A DNA stretch of 39,692 bases, from IMG/VR virus record IMGVR_UViG_3300045118_000413, positions 1 to 39,692 of that record. One strand, written 5' to 3'. The stretch is from a virus. Position 1 is the first letter of the stretch; each line of letters opens with the position of its first letter. The notes under the pieces are model-generated. The model was not told the DNA's origin. It did no database searches and saw nothing but the letters and a program-made list of their open reading frames with translations. Position numbers and translations under genes: made by a program. Of this stretch, positions 11,953-28,618 are shown piece by piece.

Positions 11953-12567
11953 ATGAGAAAAATAAAAAAATGTCAAATAGAAAACTGTCAAATTCCTCAC
12001 TTAGCAAAAGGATATTGTCACAGACATTATTTTCAAATGAGAAATCAAGGAAGAATAAAAAATAGAATAATAAAGGAAAAGAATGAAATAATTTTTGGTA
12101 GATTTTTCTGCATTATGAAACTCTATAATATAGAAGGGGAAGAAGTGGGAGAAACTTATTTTGATTTTGAGGATTATGAGAAGGTGAAAGACATAGTGTG
12201 GTGGAAAGATTATAAAGGTTACACAATATCTTATAACAAAGGTATGGATATGGCCCGTTATTTATTGGAAATACCCGCAAATAAGTTTCCTGATCATAAA
12301 AATAGAAAACCTTGGGATAATAGGAGAAAAAATATAAGGGAATCTACCTATTCAGAAAATAATAGAAATAGGAAAGTCCCGTCAAACAACACTTCTGGGC
12401 ATAAAGGAGTAGGACTTAATAAGAGAACGAATAAATGGACAGCTTGTTTATGGAAAAACAAGAAACATATTCATTTAGGATATTTTAACTCTAAGGAAGA
12501 AGCTATAAAAGCAAGGATAATCGGGGAAAAAGAGCAATATGGTAAGTTTTCCACTACAAAATTTTGA
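11953..12567 (+). CDS. HNH homing endonuclease with AP2 domain (copy 1)
   Basis: 204 residues: N-terminal zinc-like CQIENC ... GYCHRHY, a middle beta region, the HNH segment DHKNRKPWDNRRKNIRE, and a C-terminal AP2-type DNA-binding domain (SGHKGVGLNKRTNKWTACLW). Free-standing homing endonuclease related to those at 15699-16325 and 25459-26085. It lies between the helicase and primase genes, and its last 29 bases overlap the primase start in another frame. The upstream spacer is 39 bases with GGTGAAAAATC as a weak ribosome site. Confidence 0.9.
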   Translation: MRKIKKCQIENCQIPHLAKGYCHRHYFQMRNQGRIKNRIIKEKNEIIFGRFFCIMKLYNIEGEEVGETYFDFEDYEKVKDIVWWKDYKGYTISYNKGMDMARYLLEIPANKFPDHKNRKPWDNRRKNIRESTYSENNRNRKVPSNNTSGHKGVGLNKRTNKWTACLWKNKKHIHLGYFNSKEEAIKARIIGEKEQYGKFSTTKF

Positions 12568-15698: not shown

Positions 15699-16325
15699 AT
15701 GAAAATTTGCTCCATTGAAGGGTGTAATAACAAATTTTATGCAAAAGGATTGTGTGTAAACCATTATATGCAAATTAATAGATGTGGAAAAATTCTTAAA
15801 AGGACAAGATTTGATCCTAATGAAATTATCATTGATAATAACCATTGTAGGATGAAGCTTTATAATAGGAAAGGTGAAGAAATTGCAGAAACTATATTTG
15901 ATTTGGAAGATTATAATAAGGTTAAAAATATAAAATGGCACAGAATAAATACAGGATATGTAATGTCAAACAAAGAAATAGGACCTGTTTCATTTACAAA
16001 ATTCATTCTGAATCTCCACAAAGAAAAGGAAACAACAGTGGATCATAAAAATAGAAATAAATTGGATAACAGAAAAGAAAATTTAAGAATTTGCACTCAA
16101 ATGGAAAATATAAAAAATAGAGGTATTTCAAAGAATAATACATCAGGGTTTAAGGGAGTTTCCTTTTGCAAAGATATAAAAAAATGGGGAGCTTTTATAA
16201 TGTGTGATTATATCCCTATTTTTATAGGGACATTTTCTACTAAAGAAGAAGCCGCTTTAGCTTACAATGAAAAGGCTAAGGAATTACATGGAGAATTTGC
16301 TGTATTGAATGAGGTAACCATATGA
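15699..16325 (+). CDS. HNH homing endonuclease with AP2 domain (copy 2)
   Basis: 208 residues: zinc-like CSIEGCNNKFYAKGLCVNHY at the N-terminus, HNH segment DHKNRNKLDNRKENLR, C-terminal AP2 domain (TSGFKGVSFCKDIKKWGAF). Same architecture as 11953-12567 and 25459-26085. Sits between the dnaB fragment and intact dnaB and overlaps the latter by 4 bases (ATGA). Ribosome site AGAGGTAGAAAAT. Confidence 0.9.
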   Translation: MKICSIEGCNNKFYAKGLCVNHYMQINRCGKILKRTRFDPNEIIIDNNHCRMKLYNRKGEEIAETIFDLEDYNKVKNIKWHRINTGYVMSNKEIGPVSFTKFILNLHKEKETTVDHKNRNKLDNRKENLRICTQMENIKNRGISKNNTSGFKGVSFCKDIKKWGAFIMCDYIPIFIGTFSTKEEAALAYNEKAKELHGEFAVLNEVTI

Positions 16326-18227: not shown

Positions 18228-18412
18228 AAGAATTTTGTGAAGGTGAAATTGTCAGAGTAAAATTGACAAAAGAGAAGGTAATAGTTTTAGATAAACCTTC
18301 TTGTTATTCAGGACATAAAACTTATAAAGTTAGAGATACCAGAAATATTACCCGATATTTTTTTCCTTTTGAACTTGAAAATATACCAAAAAAGAAAGGG
18401 GTAAAGAAGTGA
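18224..18412 (+). CDS. Hypothetical 62-residue beta-rich protein
   Basis: GEIVRVKLTKEKVIVLDKPS then HKTYKVRDTRNITRYF: alternating strands like a small SH3/hypervirulence-type barrel. Starts in ATGA of the upstream gene and overlaps the GTG start of queD. Not identified. Confidence 0.65.
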   Translation: MKEFCEGEIVRVKLTKEKVIVLDKPSCYSGHKTYKVRDTRNITRYFFPFELENIPKKKGVKK

Positions 18413-18756
18413 TCATAGCTAAAACTTTTTATTTTGATTCAGCACATAAATTGCCGAATTATGAAGGTAAATGTAGATTTTTACATGGTCATAGATTCCG
18501 ATTAGATGTTGTTGTAGAGGGACATGTTAATCCTTTAACAGGAATGGTTATGGATTTCTCATACCTGAAAGAAGTAGTAAATAGTAGGATAATTCAATTA
18601 TTAGACCATTGTTTGTTAAATGAAATCCTAGAAAACCCTACAGCAGAAAACTTATTATTTTGGATAGCTGATGATCTTAAAAACCTACTACCTGATCTAA
18701 AAAGGCTTAGGTTGTATGAAACACCCGATTCTTATGCTGAATTGGAGGTAAAATGA
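18409..18756 (+). CDS. queD: 6-carboxytetrahydropterin synthase QueD
   Basis: 115 residues, GTG start in GTGA overlapping the upstream stop. Family hallmarks: zinc ligands H13 (FDSAHKL) and H26, H28 (RFLHGHRF), catalytic Cys22 (KCRFLHGH), VMDFSYLK, the LDHCLLN segment and a C-terminal Glu (LRLYETPDSYAEL). Converts dihydroneopterin triphosphate to 6-carboxytetrahydropterin, the second step to preQ0. Directly followed by queE (ATGA). Confidence 0.95.
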   Translation: MIIAKTFYFDSAHKLPNYEGKCRFLHGHRFRLDVVVEGHVNPLTGMVMDFSYLKEVVNSRIIQLLDHCLLNEILENPTAENLLFWIADDLKNLLPDLKRLRLYETPDSYAELEVK

Positions 18757-19409
18757 AAATTTTCAGTATTTTCCACTCAATAGATGGGGAATGTAATCTA
18801 TGGGGACAGGGAACATTCAGCACTTTCATACGTTTTTCAAATTGTAATTTAAGGTGCTGGTACTGTGACACAAAATATGCCCAAGAAGAAAGTTCTGGAA
18901 AGGACATGAGTGTAGAGGAAATTTTTAGACAAGTAGAATTTTATGGCTGTAAAAAAATCACAATAACTGGAGGAGAGCCTTTACTGCAAGAAAGGGCAGT
19001 ATACACCTTAATTGATAGATTTTCCGCAGCTAAATACAAAATAAGTGTGGAAACTAATGGAACTCAACCTATACCTACTATATTCAGATGGTTTAAGGAT
19101 TTATGTTGGGTTGTGGATTATAAATTAGATTACCAAAATAAGATGAATTATTGGTCTTTTGCTAATTTAACAAAAGATGATTTTGTAAAAATTCCGGTGG
19201 AAGATTTTAAACAGTTGGCTGAGGCTGTATTGGTGAGGAAGAGTTTGATAGATTATGGGTGTAGAGCCAGATTTTTCCTAAGTGCAGTTAAACCTAAATA
19301 TTCAGATCAAGCTCTAGTTGAGGATGCAATAAAAATAAAAATGTTTGATTTTGGAATAAATGTTCCATTACACAAGTATCTTTGGTCAGGTTCTAAACAT
19401 GAGAGATAA
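18753..19409 (+). CDS. queE: 7-carboxy-7-deazaguanine synthase QueE
   Basis: 218 residues, radical-SAM enzyme. Iron-sulfur motif C31-x3-C35-x2-C38 (CNLRCWYC), preceded by FSIFHSIDGEC, the usual QueE start. Then the SAM-binding KITITGGEPLLQ and SVETNGTQP. Converts carboxytetrahydropterin to 7-carboxy-7-deazaguanine. Coupled to queD by ATGA. Slightly compact for the family but all motifs are present. Confidence 0.95.
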   Translation: MKIFSIFHSIDGECNLWGQGTFSTFIRFSNCNLRCWYCDTKYAQEESSGKDMSVEEIFRQVEFYGCKKITITGGEPLLQERAVYTLIDRFSAAKYKISVETNGTQPIPTIFRWFKDLCWVVDYKLDYQNKMNYWSFANLTKDDFVKIPVEDFKQLAEAVLVRKSLIDYGCRARFFLSAVKPKYSDQALVEDAIKIKMFDFGINVPLHKYLWSGSKHER

Positions 19410-19446
19410 GGGAAAAAAATTTTTTGAATTTCCGAGGAAAAATAAT

Positions 19447-19475
19447 TTTCGGTTTTTCAAAAAATATGCTATATT
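19447..19475 (+). promoter_or_regulatory. Second-class promoter (TTTCGG -35)
   Basis: TTTCGG (19447-19452), 17-base spacer with GTTTTTCAAAAAA, TATATT (19470-19475) preceded by TGC. Same block as at 10532 and 30559. Serves the 19528-folE-Gat-queC-dpdA operon. Confidence 0.6.
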
Positions 19476-19527
19476 AGTAGTAGAATAAAAAAATGTCCTT
19501 AGAGACAAAAAAAATCAAGGAGGCTTT

Positions 19528-20187
19528 ATGAAAGAAATTGGTTTAATTGACTTAACAAAGTTGAAAGAGGCAATCAAATCCCTAAACGATTCCGGTCTTA
19601 TTGATCCTAAAATCAAGAGTGTAGGGAAAACTAAGGAACAACTAATCGAAGACTTCACCAACAAGATGGATGACTTGATTGAAAATCATCCAGACAAGAC
19701 AGACAAAATTCCTCAAATGGTAGCTGATATGTGGAATTTTATGTATGGTACAGATGATGCTCCTCCATCTACTCCTGCGGAACCTAAAGAAAAAGTAGAA
19801 GCTGCGGAACCTCAAGAAAAGGTAGAAGCTGAAGCTCCGAAAAAGGAAAAGAAAGCTAAAGAACCTAAACCTCCGAAAGAGCCCAAGGAAAAGAAAGAGA
19901 GAGGTCCTGGAGAAAGGATAATTTGGCTAAAAAACAAAATTGCTGAAGCTAAGTACACCAAGAAAGAATTGGTGGAAATGTATCTTGAACAATGGGGAGG
20001 ATCTAAACTTACTCCAGCTACTGCTTTAGCAGATGGAAAAAACCCCAATCAGTTAGGAACTAAATATGACAGGTTCAAGAAACTTATCCTTGTCAATGGG
20101 GATGGAGTTATGAGTTTCGATACATTGGCTCCTGTTAAACCTAAACCTGTTGAAGCTCCTGCTGAAGCTCCTGCTGAGGCTCAATAA
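19528..20187 (+). CDS. Lys/Glu/Pro-linker protein with the shared C-terminal domain
   Basis: 219 residues: N-terminal helical domain (1-~75), a low-complexity Glu/Lys/Pro/Ala linker (about 78-130, repeated AEPKEKVEA and PKEPKEKKE), the shared domain (AKYTKKELVEMYLEQWGG, TPATALADGKNPNQLGTKY; about 135-195), and a Pro/Ala tail (EAPAEAPAEAQ). The domain matches those at 5894-6400 and 401-829. ATG after AAGGAGGCTTT. It heads the deazaguanine operon after its own promoter; the function is unknown, and a DNA-binding regulator or an abundant nucleoid-type protein both fit. The linker repeats suggest slippage growth. Confidence 0.8.
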   Translation: MKEIGLIDLTKLKEAIKSLNDSGLIDPKIKSVGKTKEQLIEDFTNKMDDLIENHPDKTDKIPQMVADMWNFMYGTDDAPPSTPAEPKEKVEAAEPQEKVEAEAPKKEKKAKEPKPPKEPKEKKERGPGERIIWLKNKIAEAKYTKKELVEMYLEQWGGSKLTPATALADGKNPNQLGTKYDRFKKLILVNGDGVMSFDTLAPVKPKPVEAPAEAPAEAQ

Positions 20188-20756
20188 TGAACAAAAATGC
20201 CTTGGTGGTAATATTTGCCGGTTTTCTTAAGGAAATTGGTGAGGATCTGAACAGGAATGGTCTTGTTGATACTCCAAAAAGGATGGCTGAAATGTATGAG
20301 GAACTTTTTTGTGGGTATCAACAGGACAAAAAACCTAGGATCATGACTGTTCCAAATGGAGAAGATGGAATTCTTTATGATGAAATGCTCATAGATCAAG
20401 GTTACTTCTTCTCCCTTTGTGAACACCACATGCTTCCCTTCTTTGGTGAATACTACTATTCTTACATTCCTGACCAATTAGTTTTAGGAGCAAGTAAAAT
20501 AGGAAGAATGGTAGATTATTATTCTGGCAGACTTCAAGTGGCTGAAAGACTTGTGAATCAAATTGTAAATGAATTTGAAGAAGTCTTAAAACCTCAAGGT
20601 CAAATTCTTGTAATGAGTGCCAGACATCTTTGCAAAGAGATGAGAGGATTGAAAAAATTCAATTCCCCCTATGAAGCAATAGCTACCAGAGGTTTGTTTA
20701 GGACTAATGATGGGGGATGTAAAGATGAATTCCTTGCAAGGATCTCGAAAGGATAA
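20187..20756 (+). CDS. folE: GTP cyclohydrolase I
   Basis: 189 residues: LNRNGLVDTPKRMAEMYEEL, zinc/active-site CEHHMLPF (C78, H80, H81), GASKIGRMVDYYSGRLQVAE, SARHLCKEMRG (third zinc Cys) and the end AIATRGLFRTN. All are FolE type I signatures. Makes dihydroneopterin triphosphate from GTP, the entry to the preQ0 pathway. The start overlaps the upstream stop (TAATG). The N-terminal leader is short, as in phage enzymes. Confidence 0.96.
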   Translation: MNKNALVVIFAGFLKEIGEDLNRNGLVDTPKRMAEMYEELFCGYQQDKKPRIMTVPNGEDGILYDEMLIDQGYFFSLCEHHMLPFFGEYYYSYIPDQLVLGASKIGRMVDYYSGRLQVAERLVNQIVNEFEEVLKPQGQILVMSARHLCKEMRGLKKFNSPYEAIATRGLFRTNDGGCKDEFLARISKG

Positions 20757-20759
20757 CTT

Positions 20760-22097
20760 ATGTGTTCTATAAGTGGATGTTTAGTAGATTCCGCAAAAAT
20801 AGATTCCTTTTATTTAAGGGACATTATCAAAAAAGCACAAGAAAGAGGTAGAGATTCTTGCGGTATTTATATTGATGGAACTCTCTATTCCTCTATAGAA
20901 AAAGGTGTTATTCCTAAGATACCGATTAGTATTTATGAAATAGCTATAAATAATAATAGGGCCGAACCTACTACAGAATATGTAGAAAACAAAACTGATA
21001 AAGATGTCCAACCTTTCGTTACAAAGAGATTTGTAGTTGCTCATAATGGTACTATTGCAAATGACAAGGAACTAATTAAAAAATATTCCTTGAAAACAGA
21101 ATCCAAAATTGATTCTGCTGTAATAGCTCCATTATTAGAAAAAATTTGGAACGGTACTGTAGAACATCTTATTGAGGTACTAAGAGATGAGATTGTAGGA
21201 TCCTATGCTATGGCAATATGGGATAAGAAAACTCATACTCTATATTTAGCGGTGAATTACAAACCTTTATTTATAACATTTAAAGGAGATACTATCTATT
21301 TTTCCTCTTTAAGAAAATATCTAAATACCTATGATAACAAAATAGTGCAAGTTCCCCCTTATTCTCTGTTGGTATTGAAAGGAGGACAACTAATTCAACC
21401 CCATTCTCTTTGGAGACCTGCCCCTGAAAAAGATAAAAAGGTATTAGTAATATGTTCAGGTGGATTAGATTCTGTAGTAACTGCAACCTATTTAAAAGAT
21501 CAAGGATATGATGTTACTTTAGTCCATTTTGTTTATGGATGCAGGGCAGAAAAAAAAGAAATTCAAGCTGTAAAAGATGTTTCAGATTACCTTAACATGT
21601 CCTATCTTTTGGTTCCTCTTGACATCTTCAAAACTGTTATCGGACATTCAAGACTTACAAACACAAAAGATCAATTAGCAGATGGAGAGGCTTCCGCTGA
21701 ACTTGCTTGGGAGTGGGTTCCTGCAAGAAATTTAATAATGTATTCCATAGCTACAGCACTTGCAGAATCAAGAGGAGTAACTTACATAGCTTTGGGAAAT
21801 AATCTTGAAGAAAGCGGGGCCTATCCTGATAATGAGATGATCTTTGCTCAAAAATTCAATGACATCCTACCTTATGCTACCAATCTACAAAACAGGGTAG
21901 AAATGTTACAGCCTGTTGGAAACTTAATGAAACATGAGATAGTAAAAATGGGGTTAGAACTTAAGGCTCCTCTACATCTAACTTGGTCTTGTTATGAAGG
22001 TAGAGATTTGCATTGTGGGGTGTGCGGACCTTGCTATATGAGAAAAAAGGCTTTTATAATGAATAAGGTTGAAGATTGCATAAAATATGAAAACTAG
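20760..22097 (+). CDS. queC: Glutamine amidotransferase-QueC fusion (Gat-QueC)
   Basis: 445 residues. Domain 1 (2-~215) is a class II glutamine amidotransferase: N-terminal nucleophile Cys2 after Met removal, VAHNGTIAND around 93-102. Domain 2 (~226-445) is QueC: PP-loop SGGLDS (233-238), ARNLIMYSIATALAE, and a C-terminal zinc cluster C-x7-C-x2-C-x2-C (near CYEGRDLHCGVCGPC). QueC turns 7-carboxy-7-deazaguanine into preQ0. The fused amidotransferase is known from phages such as Enterobacteria phage 9g, where DNA carries deoxyarchaeosine, so an amidated preQ0 product is expected. ATG after CGAAAGGATAACTT. Confidence 0.94.
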   Translation: MCSISGCLVDSAKIDSFYLRDIIKKAQERGRDSCGIYIDGTLYSSIEKGVIPKIPISIYEIAINNNRAEPTTEYVENKTDKDVQPFVTKRFVVAHNGTIANDKELIKKYSLKTESKIDSAVIAPLLEKIWNGTVEHLIEVLRDEIVGSYAMAIWDKKTHTLYLAVNYKPLFITFKGDTIYFSSLRKYLNTYDNKIVQVPPYSLLVLKGGQLIQPHSLWRPAPEKDKKVLVICSGGLDSVVTATYLKDQGYDVTLVHFVYGCRAEKKEIQAVKDVSDYLNMSYLLVPLDIFKTVIGHSRLTNTKDQLADGEASAELAWEWVPARNLIMYSIATALAESRGVTYIALGNNLEESGAYPDNEMIFAQKFNDILPYATNLQNRVEMLQPVGNLMKHEIVKMGLELKAPLHLTWSCYEGRDLHCGVCGPCYMRKKAFIMNKVEDCIKYEN

Positions 22098-23904
22098 GAT
22101 CTTTTTAGATTCTGGAGCTTATACAGCCTTAACCAAAAACACAACTATTAATCTAACCGATTACATAAGATTTATCAAGGCTAATTTAGAATATTTAGAA
22201 GTTTATACCAATCTTGATTGTATTGGTAACGCCGAAGAAACTCTGATCAATCAAAAAGTTATGGAAGATTGTGGATTAAAACCTCTTCCTTGCTATCATT
22301 ACAATGAAGATGAAAAGTATTTAAGATATTACCTTGATAATTATGAGTATGTAGCTTTAGGGGGAATGGTAGGGGGAAGAAAAGAATCCTTACTCTCTTG
22401 GTTAGATCAATGTTGGAGAGTTATCTGTAAAGCTCCTGACTTTATCCCTAAAAATAAGATACATGGATTTGGTTTGACTTCTCCTGAGTTGATAGCAAGA
22501 TACCCTTGGTATTGTATGACAGAAGAAGACCATTCAATATTGACTAGATCAGGATGGAACAATTTATCAAATTTAAAAGTAGGAGATGAAATTCTGACTT
22601 TCAATTACGGGAAAACAGAATGGCAGAAAATAGAAGAAATTCCTATATTTGAAGTTCATAATGAAAAGTTATACAAATTATATAATAGGAATTTTAAAAC
22701 CATTGTTAGTGAAAACCATCGTTGGGTAGTGTCTCATTGGCAACATAGAGATGAAGAATATAAATGGAGAACAACAAAAACCCTTTCATTTAATGATTGT
22801 ATTAACCGTGTAGGAATGGATTACAATTTTCCCACAGAATCTAACATATCAAATGAACAAGTGATCATTTTATCTTGGTTTTGGACAGATGGTACTATAA
22901 ACAAAAGAAAAAGATATACCAAAAATAATGTAGTAATATATCAATCAGAAAAAGCGAATCCTGAAAAGTGTAAAATAATAAGGGAAGCCCTTATAAGGAG
23001 CGGAGAAATATTTTGTGAAAGTATAACTGAAAATATTATTTCCTTTGAATTGTACGGGGAAATGTCGGATTGGTTATTATCTATTGCACCTAATAAAAAA
23101 CTACCCGTTGATTTACCCTATAAATTAACAAAAGAACAAACGGAATTATTTATTAATAATTCCGTTTTAGCAGATGGGACTATTTCAGGTCTAAAAAGAA
23201 TAAAAGGGTTTGAGATTAAAGTCAAAAAGGAAATTAAAAAGGAAAATTTAGAAGTAATAAGGATAATGTGTTTATTGTTAGGTATACCCACCTCTGTTTA
23301 TGAATACAATAATTATAAAGGATTAAGGTCTTCTTCTATAAAACATATCTATGTAAATAAACTAAAAAAGGAAGAACAAATTTATTCAGGAAAACTATGG
23401 TGTGTGAAAGTCCCTTCTGAAGCATTTTTTGTAAAATGTAATAACCATATTTATGTTACAGGTAATTCAGTTGATTCTAGTTCATGGGTTCAATATGGAA
23501 AATATGGAATGGTCTTGATTCCTAGAGGTTCTTTCTCTGTGCCCCCATGGAGATTATTTATGTCAACTAGAAGTTCCAAGATAGGTAAAGATGGAGAGAT
23601 ACACTTTGATAATTTGACTAAACACTATAAAGCTTTAGCTTTAAACTACATTTCCTCTAAAGGATTCAGCTTGGGATCATCTGAATTTAAGAGAGTTCAC
23701 AATCTTTATAGACTGAAAGATAACGAAGCTTGGGCTGATATTAAAGAAAAAATTGTGGAGATCATTTTAGAAAAAGGATTGAGGAACAGTCATGAGTTAA
23801 GGGATCAATTCAATACCTGTTTCTTCCTTGATCTGCAAAATAGTGTACCTGAATGGCCCTGGCCTTGGAAGAAAGGAAGAAATGATTCTCTACTTTGCAG
23901 GTAA
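22087..23904 (+). CDS. dpdA: DNA 7-deazaguanine transglycosylase DpdA, interrupted by an intein
   Basis: 605 residues as encoded; after removing the intein (residues 143-460) about 287 remain. N-extein (1-142): TGT-like barrel start MKTRIFLDSGAYTALTK, YTNLDCIGN, VALGGMVGG and GFGLTSPELIARYPWY. C-extein (461-605): SVDSSSWVQYGKYG, carrying the conserved Asp-Ser-x-x-Trp of the tRNA-guanine-transglycosylase-like DpdA group, then IPRGS and a helical C-terminus. DpdA swaps guanine in DNA for a 7-deazaguanine made by FolE-QueD-QueE-QueC encoded just upstream. The start overlaps the end of Gat-queC by 11 bases; the end overlaps the gene at 23882. The protein is active only after splicing. Confidence 0.93.
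   Translation: MKTRIFLDSGAYTALTKNTTINLTDYIRFIKANLEYLEVYTNLDCIGNAEETLINQKVMEDCGLKPLPCYHYNEDEKYLRYYLDNYEYVALGGMVGGRKESLLSWLDQCWRVICKAPDFIPKNKIHGFGLTSPELIARYPWYCMTEEDHSILTRSGWNNLSNLKVGDEILTFNYGKTEWQKIEEIPIFEVHNEKLYKLYNRNFKTIVSENHRWVVSHWQHRDEEYKWRTTKTLSFNDCINRVGMDYNFPTESNISNEQVIILSWFWTDGTINKRKRYTKNNVVIYQSEKANPEKCKIIREALIRSGEIFCESITENIISFELYGEMSDWLLSIAPNKKLPVDLPYKLTKEQTELFINNSVLADGTISGLKRIKGFEIKVKKEIKKENLEVIRIMCLLLGIPTSVYEYNNYKGLRSSSIKHIYVNKLKKEEQIYSGKLWCVKVPSEAFFVKCNNHIYVTGNSVDSSSWVQYGKYGMVLIPRGSFSVPPWRLFMSTRSSKIGKDGEIHFDNLTKHYKALALNYISSKGFSLGSSEFKRVHNLYRLKDNEAWADIKEKIVEIILEKGLRNSHELRDQFNTCFFLDLQNSVPEWPWPWKKGRNDSLLCR
22513..23466 (+). mobile_element. Intein with LAGLIDADG homing endonuclease inside DpdA
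   Basis: 318 codons. Block A: Cys1 with CMTEEDHSILTRSGW and LKVGDEILTFN. Block B: VSENHRWVV, with its His. Homing endonuclease of the dodecapeptide type, motifs LSWFWTDGTI and FINNSVLADGTI. C-terminal blocks: LWCVKVPSEAFFVKCNN and HIYVTGN, followed by Ser+1 of the C-extein. The penultimate residue is Gly, not the usual His, a known variant. Insertion is just before the SVDSSSW catalytic motif, typical of inteins that target conserved active-site codons. Confidence 0.92.
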
Positions 23905-24103
23905 TTTCCCACAGTTATCAGACATCAAAAAGGAAAAAGAGTTCAAGGAAAGATTGCCGGAGTACAATAGATTGATTTCCTTTTATTATCTAAATGAATG
24001 TGAAACGGTACTTAAACTTGTAAAAGAGAAGGAGGAATATTTTGCGGAGGAAATCATAGAACCCGAATTTAAGAAAACAAAACAGAAAGGATTTAAAATA
24101 TAA
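23882..24103 (+). CDS. Conserved hypothetical, FAGNFPQ-type
   Basis: 73 residues from the ATG at 23882 (AAGAAAGGAAGAA in front); the frame extends further up inside dpdA. Begins MILYFAGNFPQLSDIKKEKE, then YNRLISFYYLNEC, a start I associate with a family of uncharacterised phage proteins lying near dpdA-type genes; not named with certainty. The C-terminal EFKKTKQKGFKI is encoded by the first copy of the 32-bp direct repeat. Compared with longer relatives it may be truncated. Confidence 0.65.
   Translation: MILYFAGNFPQLSDIKKEKEFKERLPEYNRLISFYYLNECETVLKLVKEKEEYFAEEIIEPEFKKTKQKGFKI
24068..24099 (+). repeat. 32-bp direct repeat, copy 1
   Basis: Identical to 24229-24260. Contains AACAGAAAGGATTTAAAAT, which includes a ribosome site. 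Copy 1 codes for the last residues of the upstream gene. Confidence 0.95.
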
Positions 24104-24231
24104 AAAGAGGGTAAGAAAAGTAAAAGGAGGATGGGATATAAATAGAATCTCTTGATGCAACAAGGGTAAATAACATTGACCTGAGACTTTGTTATAAATT
24201 TTATTTATAGGATACCCCACCTGCCCTCTTT
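24104..24231 (+). ncRNA. Candidate structured RNA or hairpin insertion between direct repeats
   Basis: The ~130 bases between the repeats contain no gene. AAAGAGGG (24104-24111) pairs with CCCTCTTT (24224-24231). Inside, GGATGGGATATAAATA can pair with the TATTTATAGGATACCCC segment near 24206-24222, apart from a small bulge. Inner hairpins CTTG/CAAG and GGT/ACC are possible. The nested pairing suggests a folded RNA or an inserted hairpin element; no known class is recognised. Confidence 0.5.
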
Positions 24232-24260
24232 AAGAAAACAAAACAGAAAGGATTTAAAAT
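24229..24260 (+). repeat. 32-bp direct repeat, copy 2
   Basis: Exact copy of 24068-24099, ending directly before the TTG start at 24261 and providing its ribosome site. Confidence 0.95.
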
Positions 24261-24434
24261 TTGAAAGCCTATAAATGTGATGTTTGCCGAGAACTCTTTT
24301 TGGGAGAACCTTTTTCTAAAGCAAAAATCCAACAGATTTTGTCCTCTCCTTCTCCTGCAGCAAAAGAATATGTACTTGACTTATGTAAAAGATGTTTTGA
24401 AGAATTAATAATACCAAAGGAGGTAGACCATTGA
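24261..24434 (+). CDS. Zinc-motif hypothetical protein
   Basis: 57 residues with CDVC (6-9) and CKRC (about 42-45) separated by a helical loop. TTG start with AGAAAGGATTTAAAAT, supplied by direct-repeat copy 2. Its stop overlaps the TTG start of the clamp gene, so both are co-translated. Function unknown. Confidence 0.65.
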   Translation: MKAYKCDVCRELFLGEPFSKAKIQQILSSPSPAAKEYVLDLCKRCFEELIIPKEVDH

Positions 24435-25459
24435 GAATCATAAGAGATCAACTTGTTAATATCCTAGCTTCACTAAAACCTGGGTTGGCTAAAAAAGATT
24501 TAATCCAACAAATGTCCCATTTTATCTTTACAGGACATGACATCTGTACCTACAATGATAGAACCTGTATAATTTATCCTTACGAAACAGATTTCAAATG
24601 CTCTGTAAAAGGTGAGGAACTTTATAAGGTTCTCTATGGTGTAAGTGAAGATGAAGTGGACATGATTGTAGAAAATAATTACCTAAAAATAGGTTCTAAA
24701 AAACTGAAGGCAGGACTTTCTACCTTGATTGATGAAAAAGAAAAAGTGGAACCTATGATCAATTCAATAAAAAGGAGTTTAAAGAAATTAGAATTTGAAC
24801 CTTTGCCTACAAACTTCCTAGATGGTTCATTTCTCTGTATGTTTAGTACAGCTAAGGACATGACAAAAGGAGTTCTGAATTGTGTTTGTTACCATGATGA
24901 AAATATATTTTCAACCGATTCTTTAAGGGTAAGTCATTTTAAGATGAACAGACCTGTAAAATTCTCCTTGATCCATTTCAAAAATGTAATTGATATGGTA
25001 AAATTTCCTATAGTTGAGACAGCACTCGGAACATCTTGGATACATTTCAAAACATCTGATGGTGTCTTGTTTAATTGCAGAGTTTTACTTGAGGAATATC
25101 CTGAACATATTGAAAATTATTTCAATGTAACAGGTAAAAAGATTTCCTTGCCTAAGAAACTAAAAGAAGTAATTGAAACTGTTACTGTTTTAGCAGAAGG
25201 AGAAATTGATACCGAAAGAGTTATAAAGGTAGAAATTGCTAACAACGAAATAAAATGTACTGCAAAAAAGGAAAGAGGATGGATTGAGAATTCTACAGAA
25301 ATTGAATATAAGGACAAACTTATAACCTTTTATATCAATCCTATATTCTTTGCTCAAATTTTAGATAGGGCAACAGACATGGTTGTGGAACAAAATACAG
25401 CCTTGTTTGTGACTGAAACCTTTAAACATGTTATTTCTTTATTACCCATGGAGGAATGA
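24431..25459 (+). CDS. dnaN: DNA polymerase sliding clamp (beta-type)
   Basis: 342 residues with the length and rhythm of DnaN: three repeats of strand-rich domain. Signals include KPGLAKKDLI, NNYLKIGSKKLKAGL (compare the beta-clamp R-F-x-L-P-x strand), FSTDSLRVSHF in domain 2, and the end segment FYINPIFFAQILDR then ALFVTETFKHVISLLPM, equivalent to the last domain and C-terminal M-P-x of beta clamps. Encircles DNA and tethers the polymerase at 26054. TTG start with CAAAGGAGGTAGACCA. No single motif is diagnostic; the family call rests on layout and context. Confidence 0.78.
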   Translation: MRIIRDQLVNILASLKPGLAKKDLIQQMSHFIFTGHDICTYNDRTCIIYPYETDFKCSVKGEELYKVLYGVSEDEVDMIVENNYLKIGSKKLKAGLSTLIDEKEKVEPMINSIKRSLKKLEFEPLPTNFLDGSFLCMFSTAKDMTKGVLNCVCYHDENIFSTDSLRVSHFKMNRPVKFSLIHFKNVIDMVKFPIVETALGTSWIHFKTSDGVLFNCRVLLEEYPEHIENYFNVTGKKISLPKKLKEVIETVTVLAEGEIDTERVIKVEIANNEIKCTAKKERGWIENSTEIEYKDKLITFYINPIFFAQILDRATDMVVEQNTALFVTETFKHVISLLPMEE

Positions 25460-26085
25460 TGAAGGTTTGTTCAGTAGAGGGATGCAATAGAAAACATCAT
25501 GCAAAAGGATTATGTGAAAAACATTATATGCAAATAAGGTTATATGGAAAAATTTTAGAGAGGACAATGTTTGACAAAAATGAGATAATCTTTGGTAAGT
25601 TTTTCTGTATTATGAAATTGTATAATTCAAAGGGAATAGAAATAGGGGAAACCTATTTTGATTTTGAGGATTATGAAAGAATAAAAAAGTACAAGTGGTG
25701 TATTAATTCTAATGGGTACGTGGTGTCTTATATGAAAGGCAAAATAATATACCTAACCAAATTTTTACTTAATCCTTTAAAAGGTGTACAAATTGATCAC
25801 AAAAATAGGAATAAGTTAGATAATAGAAGGAGAAATTTAAGATTAGCAACTCATCAACAGAATCAAATAAACAAAAACCTATCAAAATTTAATAAATCAG
25901 GGTATTCGGGTATATTTATTTCTCATGGAAAATGGGTAGCACAAATAAAGATAAATAAAAAGACAACACATATTGGTACTTTTGCTTCAAAAGAAGAAGC
26001 TGTATTAGCTAGAATAAATAAAGCTTCAGAAATATATGGAGAGTTTATTCCTTATGAAAATAAAAGGATTTTTTCCATCAGATGA
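25459..26085 (+). CDS. HNH homing endonuclease with AP2 domain (copy 3)
   Basis: 208 residues from the second of two ATGs (ATGATG at 25456), GGAGGAATG in front. Zinc-like CSVEGCNRKHHAKGLCEKHY, HNH segment DHKNRNKLDNRRRNLR, C-terminal AP2-type domain (SGYSGIFISHGKWVAQI). Related to the copies at 11953 and 15699. Sits between clamp and polymerase genes; its last 32 bases overlap the polymerase gene start, and the polymerase ribosome site lies in its coding sequence. Confidence 0.9.
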   Translation: MKVCSVEGCNRKHHAKGLCEKHYMQIRLYGKILERTMFDKNEIIFGKFFCIMKLYNSKGIEIGETYFDFEDYERIKKYKWCINSNGYVVSYMKGKIIYLTKFLLNPLKGVQIDHKNRNKLDNRRRNLRLATHQQNQINKNLSKFNKSGYSGIFISHGKWVAQIKINKKTTHIGTFASKEEAVLARINKASEIYGEFIPYENKRIFSIR

Positions 26086-28618
26086 TTTTACTAAATTAAG
26101 AGTAGATTCTTCTCCTTGTTCTCTTTGCAAGTTATTTAAAGGATGTGATTCCCCTAAAATGCAACCTTCAGGAGAAGGTAGAAAGAAAATTTTAGTTATT
26201 GGAGAAGAACCAGGAGAGGAAGAAGATAAGCAAGGGATACAATTTGTAGGCGAAACAGGTAGATTTCTTAGAAGAAGTTTAGGAAACCTGGGTGTTGATC
26301 TTGATCTTGATTGTTGGAAAGACAATGCTATAAGATGCAGAAAACCTGGAAATGAAACACCTAATAAAAAAGAAATACAATGTTGTAAAGAACATCTTGA
26401 TAGAACAATCAGAGAACTACAACCAGAACATATATGGTTGTTTGGAGGTAGTGCAGTACAATCCTATTTCATGAACAGGTTCACTAACACATCAATAACT
26501 TTATGGAGAGGATTAAGATTCCCCGATCACAGAATAGGGGCCTGGGTGATGCCTACATTTCATCCAAGCTTTATCAAAAGAAAAGAGGATGATAAAATTG
26601 TACAAAATGTTTTCAAATCTGATCTTCTGGAAATGGCACACAATCTAACAATAGAACCATTAGAAAAAAGAGTAAATGTTTCAGAGTATTATCCCAATGT
26701 TATAAAACTAAAAACCTTTGATGAAATCATAGCAGTTTTGAATGATGTTTTAAACAAAGACCGCTTAATCACCTTTGATTATGAAACAAATTGCCTTAAA
26801 CCTTTTGATAGTAGGGCTAAAATAGCTTCCATAGCCTTTGCTGTTTCTGAATTTAATTCCTACGCTTTCCCTTATGAATACAGAGACTATTGGAAACCTA
26901 GAGAACTAGATTATTTAAAAATGAAATGGGTTCAGGTGCTAACTCATCCAATGAAAAAAGTAGCACAAAATATACCTTATGAAAATATGTGGTCTATTAT
27001 GAAGTTTGGAGTAAATGTTGAATCATGGCATTCCTGTACTATGAATACTACTCATTTACTTGATAACAGAAAGGGATTTACAGGATTAAAGTTTCAATCT
27101 GCTGTTAGGTATGGCGCAGATGATTATGATAAATCTGTAAAACATCTGTTAGAATCGAAAGAAGGCAAATTTAATAGAGTAATGGACATACCTTTAGATG
27201 ATCTGTTACTTTACAATGGATTAGATGCTATCTTTACTAATTGGTTATTTTTAGACCAACAAGAAGAGATCGGAGATGATAAGAAATTAAAATACACCCA
27301 TGATTTCATTGTGGAAGGCTTAAAAGCTCTATCAGATATACAAATCAACGGTATAAACATAGATACAGAATACTATCTAAAGGAATATAAAGAGATTGAA
27401 AGTAAGGTAAAACAATTAGAAAAGGAGATAAAAAGTATAGAAGAAATAAAAACCTTTGAAAATAATAAAAAAAGGTTAATCAATTTAGATTCCGACTTTG
27501 ACAAAAGAGAGTTATTCTTCAAACAGATGAAATTACCCTCAATTAAAAAGACAGTCGGTAATTTAGATTCTGTAGATAATTCAGTTATTTCTAACATAGA
27601 TCATCCTATAGCTAAAAAGATGTTGGAGAGAGATAAGTTAGAGAAAACTAGAGGTACTTATCTTGCTCAATTTATGAGGGAAGTTGAAGAAGATGGTAGG
27701 ATGCACCCATTCTTCAACCTTCATACGGTAAAAACAAACAGGTCTAGTTCAGATAGACCTAATTTTCAAAACATACCTGTAAGAGATGAAGAAGCTAAGA
27801 GGTACACAAGGAGTGGAATAATACCCTCGCTAGGAAATCAAATACTTGATTGTGATTATGGATCACAGGAAGTTAGAATTTTAGCTTGTTATACAAAAGA
27901 CCCTGCATTGATAGAATACATAAATGATCCCACTTCTGATATGCACAGAGATCAAGCTATGGAAATATTTCTACTTGAAAAAAGTGAGGTAGATAAAAAA
28001 ATAAGATTTTATGCTAAGAATAACCTAGTGTTCCCTCTTTTCTATGGCAGTTATTACATTTCTTGTGCTAAAGATTTATGGAAGAATTGTCTTGATTTAA
28101 AAACAACTGAGGGCGTAAAAATTAAAGATCATCTAGCAAAAAGGGGTATTGTAAGCTATGTTCAGTTTGAAAATCACATAAAAAAGGTGGAGGAGAAATT
28201 CTGGAAAAAATTGCCCAAAGTTAAAGAATGGCAAGAAGAAGTGATAGATTTTTTTGAAAAAAATCAATATATTGGAATGTTTCATGGGTTTAAATATGCA
28301 GGAGGAATTGCTACTAGAAATGAGATAATTAATGCCCCTATTCAAGGTACAGCTTTCCATTGCTTATTGTGGTCTCTTATCGAAATAAATAAAATCATAA
28401 AGGAGGAGAAATTAAAGACAAAAATAATAGGACAGATCCATGATTCTATAGTATTTGATTGCTTCCCCCCTGAAAAAGAGACTATAAAAAAAATAACTGA
28501 ATTTATTGCGACTGAAGAAATAGCAAAAGTTTTTCCTTGGTTGATAGTTCCCTTAATGATCGAATGGGAAGAAACTGAAGTAAACCAATCTTGGTATTAC
28601 AAGAAGGAGGTAAAATGA
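26054..28618 (+). CDS. Uracil-DNA glycosylase / DNA polymerase I fusion
   Basis: 854 residues from the ATG at 26054 (GGAGAG about 10 bases upstream; the ATG at 26036 lacks a site). Domain 1 (1-~195): family 4-type uracil-DNA glycosylase with iron-sulfur Cys (CSLCKLFKGC; CRKPGN and QCC), catalytic-loop GEEPGEEEDKQG, FVGETG and PTFHPSF. Domain 2: 3'-5' exonuclease, LITFDYETN (Exo I), QNIPYEN (Exo II), YNGLDAIF (Exo III). Domain 3: family A polymerase, motif A DCDYGSQEVRI, motif B KNNLVFPLFYGS, motif C IHDSIVFD. All catalytic residues visible. Such fusions are known from phages of the SPO1 kind, as I recall. Confidence 0.93.
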   Translation: MKIKGFFPSDDFTKLRVDSSPCSLCKLFKGCDSPKMQPSGEGRKKILVIGEEPGEEEDKQGIQFVGETGRFLRRSLGNLGVDLDLDCWKDNAIRCRKPGNETPNKKEIQCCKEHLDRTIRELQPEHIWLFGGSAVQSYFMNRFTNTSITLWRGLRFPDHRIGAWVMPTFHPSFIKRKEDDKIVQNVFKSDLLEMAHNLTIEPLEKRVNVSEYYPNVIKLKTFDEIIAVLNDVLNKDRLITFDYETNCLKPFDSRAKIASIAFAVSEFNSYAFPYEYRDYWKPRELDYLKMKWVQVLTHPMKKVAQNIPYENMWSIMKFGVNVESWHSCTMNTTHLLDNRKGFTGLKFQSAVRYGADDYDKSVKHLLESKEGKFNRVMDIPLDDLLLYNGLDAIFTNWLFLDQQEEIGDDKKLKYTHDFIVEGLKALSDIQINGINIDTEYYLKEYKEIESKVKQLEKEIKSIEEIKTFENNKKRLINLDSDFDKRELFFKQMKLPSIKKTVGNLDSVDNSVISNIDHPIAKKMLERDKLEKTRGTYLAQFMREVEEDGRMHPFFNLHTVKTNRSSSDRPNFQNIPVRDEEAKRYTRSGIIPSLGNQILDCDYGSQEVRILACYTKDPALIEYINDPTSDMHRDQAMEIFLLEKSEVDKKIRFYAKNNLVFPLFYGSYYISCAKDLWKNCLDLKTTEGVKIKDHLAKRGIVSYVQFENHIKKVEEKFWKKLPKVKEWQEEVIDFFEKNQYIGMFHGFKYAGGIATRNEIINAPIQGTAFHCLLWSLIEINKIIKEEKLKTKIIGQIHDSIVFDCFPPEKETIKKITEFIATEEIAKVFPWLIVPLMIEWEETEVNQSWYYKKEVK

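Follow-up and report, generated by a model that had tools for sequence, protein, structure and literature searches.

The viral record IMGVR_UViG_3300045118_000413, analysed here over its entire 39,692 bases (the window), contains on its plus strand an open reading frame (ORF; 22087-23904) of 605 amino acids, open along its full length, whose translation reads ...RYPWY|CMTEEDH...IYVTGN|SVDSSSW.... The two bars enclose an insert of 318 codons (22513-23466, +; ORF codons 143-460) that begins with CMTEEDH, ends with IYVTGN and extends from Cys1 to Asn318. On its N side lies the first part of a predicted DpdA enzyme (N-extein; 22087-22512, +; 142 codons), which contains a DSGA motif and ends in YPWY; on its C side follows the second part (C-extein; 23467-23904, +; 145 codons plus stop), which opens with SVDSSSW and so provides Ser+1, Val+2 and Asp+3 (D463 of the precursor). 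The translation, a model of the precursor and homologues carrying an insert at the same site all place the boundaries here. The original prediction, made from the letters alone, of a 318-residue intein splitting DpdA between YPWY and SVDSSSW is borne out by the ORF, with coordinates exact to the base. Computed masses are 70.9 kDa for the precursor, 37.5 kDa for the intein and 33.5 kDa for the spliced DpdA. From sequence and modelling we consider it highly probable that the insert is a complete, mobile, self-splicing intein, lodged in a phage DpdA at a conserved motif of the active site, PWY|SVD.

The features of an intein are found together in this insert: it lies in frame, homologues with an exact empty site exist, splicing blocks A, B, F and G can be read, and residues 143-460 of the AlphaFold2 precursor model (predicted local distance difference test, pLDDT, 86.9; predicted template modelling score, pTM, 0.56) are predicted to adopt the HINT fold. 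The same segment matches the homing-endonuclease inteins TliVMA (Z 21.7), PI-PfuI (18.8) and PI-SceI (18.6), as well as several mini-inteins at Z 11-15. The splice-site loops (142-147 and 461-465) have pLDDT below 50, and the junction geometry of the model is therefore unreliable. The blocks named in the original prediction hold up in an alignment of 11 same-site intein rows, two of them identical, where the putative splicing residues are invariant (11/11). Block A supplies Cys1 (A:1; 22513-22515, +), the candidate first nucleophile; block B supplies His69 (B:10) and Trp71 (B:12), which align with the HRM of the AceL NrdHF intein (22717-22725, +); block F supplies Cys297 (F:4; 23401-23403, +), an alternative first nucleophile; and block G closes the intein with Thr316, the penultimate Gly317 and the terminal Asn318 (23458-23466, +). 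Both LAGLIDADG motifs are likewise present: LSWFWTDG (22870-22893, +), with the predicted catalytic Asp126 (Asp in nine rows, Glu in two), and INNSVLADG (23152-23178, +), with the predicted catalytic Asp221 (invariant). Model residues 252-421 match I-DmoI (Z about 14), and the Pfam profile LAGLIDADG_3 scores just under its cut-off (22.0 against 22.5 bits; E 1.9e-4). Two motif helices, each with an acidic residue and set in a LAGLIDADG fold, point to a LAGLIDADG homing endonuclease.

Inteins at the same place were found in other viruses by three scans. A whole-ORF scan yielded six loci, one of them a copy of the window's virus; an intein-profile scan yielded 22 loci, of which ten (L088-L097) carry an insert at the same place in DpdA, the remaining 12 having distant inteins in proteins other than DpdA; and a junction-pattern scan yielded seven stretches, six on contigs already found and one new (L118). 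The last is a more divergent DpdA whose same-site intein is followed by Cys (L118:7498-9468), the sole case of Cys for Ser at +1 among the DpdA genes whose junction was read. Once copies are merged (L088, L002 and L120 with the window; L094 with L097, which are 99.6% identical over 12,954 aligned bases), ten distinct viral DpdA genes are occupied, so that the search for inteins in DpdA proteins proposed with the original prediction returns nine besides the window's. A DpdA-profile scan, taken to the best 80 of 547 relatives and by its ranking favouring uninterrupted genes, found the site uninterrupted in 79 loci (77 junctions read by program, L037 and L087 by eye), the eightieth (L008) nearly duplicating the window's gene; occupation of the site looks infrequent. 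Close pairs of occupied and empty genes include L090 with L048, L051 and L056, where the empty site is exact, L092 with L063, and L095 with L068 and L032. The +1 residue is Ser in all 79 uninterrupted homologues and in nine of the ten distinct occupied genes, and Ser+1 is therefore inherited from DpdA. A junction pattern for further alleles ending in His-Asn found none, in a non-exhaustive scan that covered the two serines as TCN codons only. Outside viruses the relatives found for the intein are distant: one of 35 candidate stretches from a genome scan was confirmed, in Herbidospora (24%), and a plasmid search returned nine distant records, all from Streptomyces.

The identity of the interrupted enzyme is supported by several lines of evidence. 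The N-extein matches PHROG 887, 'queuine tRNA-ribosyltransferase' (E 2.9e-38), as does the uninterrupted DpdA of L009 (E 9.3e-44, covering residues 2-252 of 304); the C-extein by itself has no PHROG match. Joined exteins, searched against named phages, align in one piece across the junction, by at least five residues, in all of the 60 rows listed (from 229 matching records and 231 places, two records perhaps having a second place). An AlphaFold2 model of L009 DpdA, a homologue taken in place of the window's spliced chain (pLDDT 90.0, pTM 0.82), was compared with known structures by VIA, and all 50 matches listed are structures of the tRNA-guanine transglycosylase (TGT) family (Z 11.2-11.7), among them 7ui4, 'DNA preQ0 insertase DpdA' (Z 11.5; 3.5 A over 215 residues). 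Other results weigh against the assignment. PF01702 has no match in the window's record; the joined-extein profile finds nothing among PDB sequences up to E 1, and a further PDB sequence search with a DpdA profile finds no TGT, only one unrelated match at E 0.78; and Foldseek lists no TGT among 50 matches for the L009 model (best E 0.025), but other TIM-barrel and unrelated proteins, so that TGT heads only the list of the second-look aligner.

The position of the junction within the enzyme fits the description of an intein beside the DpdA active site. S461 and D463 are invariant in a 39-row alignment (A4), and the insertion lies two residues ahead of D463, on its N-terminal side. D463 is probably the TGT nucleophile, an assignment that comes from its invariance and from an end-to-end fold match rather than from a residue map; in a profile comparison E. 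coli Tgt matches only weakly and locally, around the LGG/GGLAVGE motif (E 0.024, probability 2%). In the VIA alignments residue 1 of the L009 model stands opposite residue 98 of Zymomonas TGT. The Asp of the DSGA motif is residue 5 in L009, and the corresponding Asp8 of the window's DpdA would then fall, if there is no gap, at Asp102 of the Zymomonas enzyme, which we take to be catalytic.

Upstream of dpdA, and on the same strand, a deazaguanine cluster (18409-22097) gives the gene order queD-queE-folE-gat-queC-dpdA, with QueD (18409-18756, +), QueE (18753-19409, +), FolE (20187-20756, +) and a GAT-QueC fusion (20760-22097, +) each identified by Pfam and NCBIfam matches. The DpdA of Enterobacteria phage 9g, a member of the complete-pathway subgroup (PMC6884629), comes with the same set of genes; it is 42% identical to the window's N-extein and differs in aligning in one piece across the site, without an insert there. 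In the work cited, 9g DpdA together with Gat-QueC put 2'-deoxyarchaeosine (dG+) into plasmid DNA, and dG+ is said to result where Gat-QueC takes the place of QueC (PMC6884629). By gene neighbourhood and by this analogy, the window's DpdA probably inserts a 7-deazaguanine base into DNA, and the phage DNA is predicted to carry dG+. Active base modification would then depend on splicing, a sound inference of the original prediction. In the occupied loci L004, L005 and L093 the tblastn matches to the fusion span only 216-256 amino acids, which suggests plain QueC and perhaps another final base. The cluster also encloses an uncharacterised ORF of 219 amino acids rich in Lys, Glu and Pro (19528-20187), with a 76-residue match at 64% in L009.

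How did the intein come to be in this gene? On a DpdA tree of 84 rows (89 before identical ones were removed), the 10 rows with an intein require nine gains or losses, at least seven of them forced by well-supported branches; the intein shows no more clustering than labels that were shuffled (as low in 176 of 500 shuffles), and a single clade of intein-bearing DpdA is rejected by an approximately unbiased (AU) test (p-AU 5.7e-33). Of 45 non-independent pairs from 10 rows, among which L094 and L097 are near copies, 37 have a higher identity in the intein than in the exteins, with no correlation between the two values (rho 0.06); L089 and L090, for example, are 85% identical in the intein and 63% in the exteins. 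A grouping based on DpdA is rejected when tested on the intein data (p 1.9e-6). Rough ratios of nonsynonymous to synonymous divergence (dN/dS) for the intein are 0.07 between L089 and L090 and 0.16 and 0.10 between the window and these two (dS 1.28, 1.70 and 2.94), from which the intein is under purifying selection. Scatter, disagreement between intein and host, and conserved splicing residues are together consistent with an intein that homes and is selected for splicing.

The flanks of the window's intein tell a related story. In a comparison with 13 loci of other viruses, two of the window's proteins, one DnaN-like (83%) and one a fusion of a uracil-DNA glycosylase (UDG) to a polymerase (54%), have their nearest counterparts in the phage L009, whose site is empty. 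The C-extein, too, is closest to L009 (58%, next 48%; 36% to L017 and L092), whereas the N-extein is 43% identical to L009 and 57-58% to the L014/L017/L092 group, of which L092 bears the intein. Nucleotide similarity to L009 restarts at 23467, the first base of the C-extein (45 bases at 89%), and the window has the lowest concordance between N and C halves of the 84 rows (rho -0.20). This mosaic fits an arrival of the intein together with its N-side flank, as in homing with co-conversion. The interpretation is post hoc, and several observations speak against it: the intein-free L075 is nearly as discordant (rho -0.18), as almost are L059, L009 and L087, also intein-free; in quick trees the N-half data reject a pairing of window and L009 only at p 0.042, and the C-half data pair them with a support of 87, below the well-supported mark; and, taken together, the rows with an intein show no greater discordance between halves than the empty ones (p 0.19, 84 rows). 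In the UDG-polymerase itself (26036-28618) the glycosylase domain belongs to family 4 and the DNA polymerase to family A; several loci, occupied as well as empty, have matches to it close to dpdA.

Instead of homing, a single old insertion in a DpdA ancestor may have been inherited vertically and lost repeatedly, with little or no recent movement. Some of the data lean this way: the intein grouping is compatible with the extein data for the 10 rows (p 0.155); dS is near saturation even for the most similar distinct inteins, L089 and L090, whose divergence is therefore not recent; and the occupied loci have gene neighbourhoods in common, though the empty loci compared share them too. One ancestral insertion followed by many losses could account for part of the scatter. 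As a whole, however, such a history is improbable, given the forced changes on the DpdA tree, the rejection of the host grouping by the intein data, the excess of intein over extein similarity in L089/L090, and the requirement that each loss of an intein be exact. Still less probable, to the point of being very hard to credit, is that the insert is a degenerate intein that no longer splices, leaving DpdA inactive or working as split halves: the frame is intact, splicing residues are retained at intein identities as low as about 40%, the dN/dS values are low even when read as roughly as dS of 1.3-2.9 demands, and exteins flank the insert on both sides in ten distinct genes, each with Ser or Cys at +1. 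A living intein could, conceivably, act as a slow or conditional regulator that delays DpdA activation and times DNA modification, as the original prediction had read from the penultimate Gly and Ser+1. The intein lacks a penultimate His, a residue position suggested to tune splicing (PMC5050341); its insertion adjoining an invariant Asp would hold the precursor inactive; and it contains seven Cys, which brings to mind an intein described as a sensor of oxidative stress (PMC6195587). Yet Ser+1 is merely the native residue of DpdA, and Gly-Asn is the rule in this group, closing all 25 related inteins (the 11 same-site rows and 14 others). The penultimate His is poorly conserved among mycobacteriophage class 1 inteins, and an intein of a recombination directionality factor (RDF) with penultimate Gly was fully spliced at time zero, while its Gly-to-His variant needed over 5 h for splicing to get about halfway (PMC5050341). 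Inteins in named-phage proteins annotated 'phosphoesterase' or 'RDF' are homologous to the window's (24%), and for this phage group the earlier reasoning is therefore the wrong way round. AceL NrdHF, furthermore, has neither of the C-terminal histidines and needs only minutes to splice (PMC7891396). A regulatory role of this kind seems to us very improbable, if less so than a dead insert, and the absence of a penultimate His in phage inteins is not in itself a sign of slow splicing.

A more serious alternative concerns the chemistry of splicing. All three residues of the class 3 WCT triplet, Trp71 (B:12), Cys297 (F:4) and Thr316 (G:5), accompany Cys1, which makes the first nucleophile uncertain; judged by sequence, Cys1 is the likelier and Cys297 a real alternative. 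By the class 3 route Cys297 would attack the N-terminal junction first and Cys1 would be dispensable, and the intein would resemble the phage progenitor from which, in a published hypothesis, class 3 inteins arose by loss of the N-terminal nucleophile (PMC3196547). Consistently, the triplet does not vary in the 11 rows, the spacings H69/W71 and C297/T316 (19 apart) equal those of MchDnaB1 (His65, Trp67, Cys124 and Thr143; PMC7664689), and the class 3 AceL NrdHF intein (6zgq) is both the best sequence-profile match in the PDB (E 0.0057) and the top-scoring small intein by fold (Z 14.7). But AceL NrdHF itself has Met instead of Trp at B:12 (PMC7891396), Cys is the second commonest residue at F:4 in inteins generally (PMC4031507), and class 3 inteins are defined, in the sections cited, by having no N-terminal nucleophile (PMC3196547, PMC7891396); because Cys1 is as invariant as the triplet, a class 3 assignment was rejected. 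A survey of 14 other related inteins (8 contigs and 6 named phages, the starting Cys of Ichabod read by eye) points in the same direction. It left out L098, whose frame ends inside the insert, and L101, L102, L103 and L108, whose junctions match those of L100/L104 fully or almost so. Each of the 14 begins with Cys or has one close to its start, carries Cys at F:4 and ends in GN; G:5 is Thr in 11 and Ser in three, and B:12 is Trp in only eight. In these eight the starting Cys stands beside a complete WCT, a combination that therefore marks a wider phage group. We regard a start by Cys297 as possible but unlikely.

Splicing, cutting and base modification are what we infer from boundaries, conserved residues, fold, same-site copies and scattered occupancy, all of them seen in sequence or model. 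We envision a scenario whereby the precursor is synthesised as a single 71-kDa chain, an intein cysteine (Cys1, possibly Cys297 of block F) starts the reaction, the N-extein is moved to Ser+1, and cyclisation of Asn318 frees the intein-endonuclease (37.5 kDa) and DpdA (33.5 kDa). Once mature, DpdA, supplied by QueD, QueE, FolE and GAT-QueC, would swap guanine for 7-deazaguanine in phage DNA, while the LAGLIDADG domain might cut the intein-free dpdA of co-infecting phages at the PWY|SVD motif; repair would then copy the intein into the cut gene, at times together with flanking dpdA sequence. One splicing event would thus free two opposed activities, a homing endonuclease and DpdA, and this suggests a joint reading: modification by the released DpdA might shield the dpdA target, which would limit homing to early co-infection with unmodified DNA and turn splicing into a self-limiting switch between spread and protection, with either Cys1 or the block-F Cys perhaps able to start it, as the proposed phage progenitor of class 3 inteins would be expected to do. 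We offer this as speculation and think it improbable in its entirety.

Elsewhere in the window, three free-standing HNH endonuclease genes (11953-12567, 15699-16325 and 25456-26085) each have PHROG 99 as best match, and one of them overlaps the 5' end of the gene for DNA polymerase; by sequence, the phage is rich in homing-type nucleases. Just downstream of the dpdA region a 38-nt direct repeat (24068-24105 and 24229-24266; 95% identical) surrounds about 123 nt, its first copy lying at the end of a small ORF, and 24100-24262 can fold as RNA (z -2.15). Among the loci compared, two alone match this region, L009 over 72 nt and L013 over 33 nt.

Compared with known systems, this appears to be an ordinary kind of intein in an unreported host enzyme. 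The original prediction knew of no described intein in the DpdA family, and literature searches agree: no DpdA intein was found among open-licence papers. Its view that a DNA-modification host is exceptional for inteins does not survive, since 11 DNA methyltransferase inteins are listed in PMC5050341 and homologous inteins occur in annotated phage DNA methyltransferase genes and in L105-L107; we rejected uniqueness of the host on these grounds. Those of StressBall gp53, DRBy19 gp70 and L105-L107 are, like the window's, LAGLIDADG inteins in DNA-modification enzymes, but only 21-24% identical to it. L105, L106 and L107 are viral DNA methyltransferase-like genes whose distant homologous inteins lie ahead of an SGFPKS motif, an insertion point read in these three contigs. 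Insertion beside conserved motifs is a recurring theme (PMC5050341). What is added is that a transglycosylase for DNA-base modification joins the intein-occupied proteins, and that ten distinct same-site alleles with matched empty sites make homing amenable to study in a gene whose product may shield DNA from nucleases.

The inteins of mycobacteriophage RDF proteins (metallophosphoesterases) of the Bethlehem gp51 type share the LAGLIDADG domain, a similar length, Cys at F:4, a TGN end and Ser+1 (PMC5050341). The 'phosphoesterase' intein of Ichabod, a record tied to Bethlehem RDF by annotation rather than by direct comparison, is matched by tblastn at 24% over 97% of the window's intein (E 2e-9). 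The RDF inteins differ in their host, in having Val instead of Trp at B:12 (Ichabod), and in an identity of only about 24%. The best-ranked named-phage match is the intein of Mycobacterium phage Pinkcreek gp135 (27.1%, E 4e-27), which, like the inteins of Gordonia phage TerL and portal proteins, shares a starting Cys, the W-C-T residues and a GN end; host proteins and sites differ, and identity does not exceed 27%. The class 3 inteins AceL NrdHF and MchDnaB1, finally, share the HINT fold and the C and T of the triplet, and MchDnaB1 also the W at the same spacing (PMC7664689, PMC7891396); as described there, both are without an N-terminal nucleophile, whereas Cys1 of the window's intein is invariant. 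With its conserved pairing of Cys1 and WCT, the group is a natural setting in which to test how phage class 1 inteins could have given rise to class 3.

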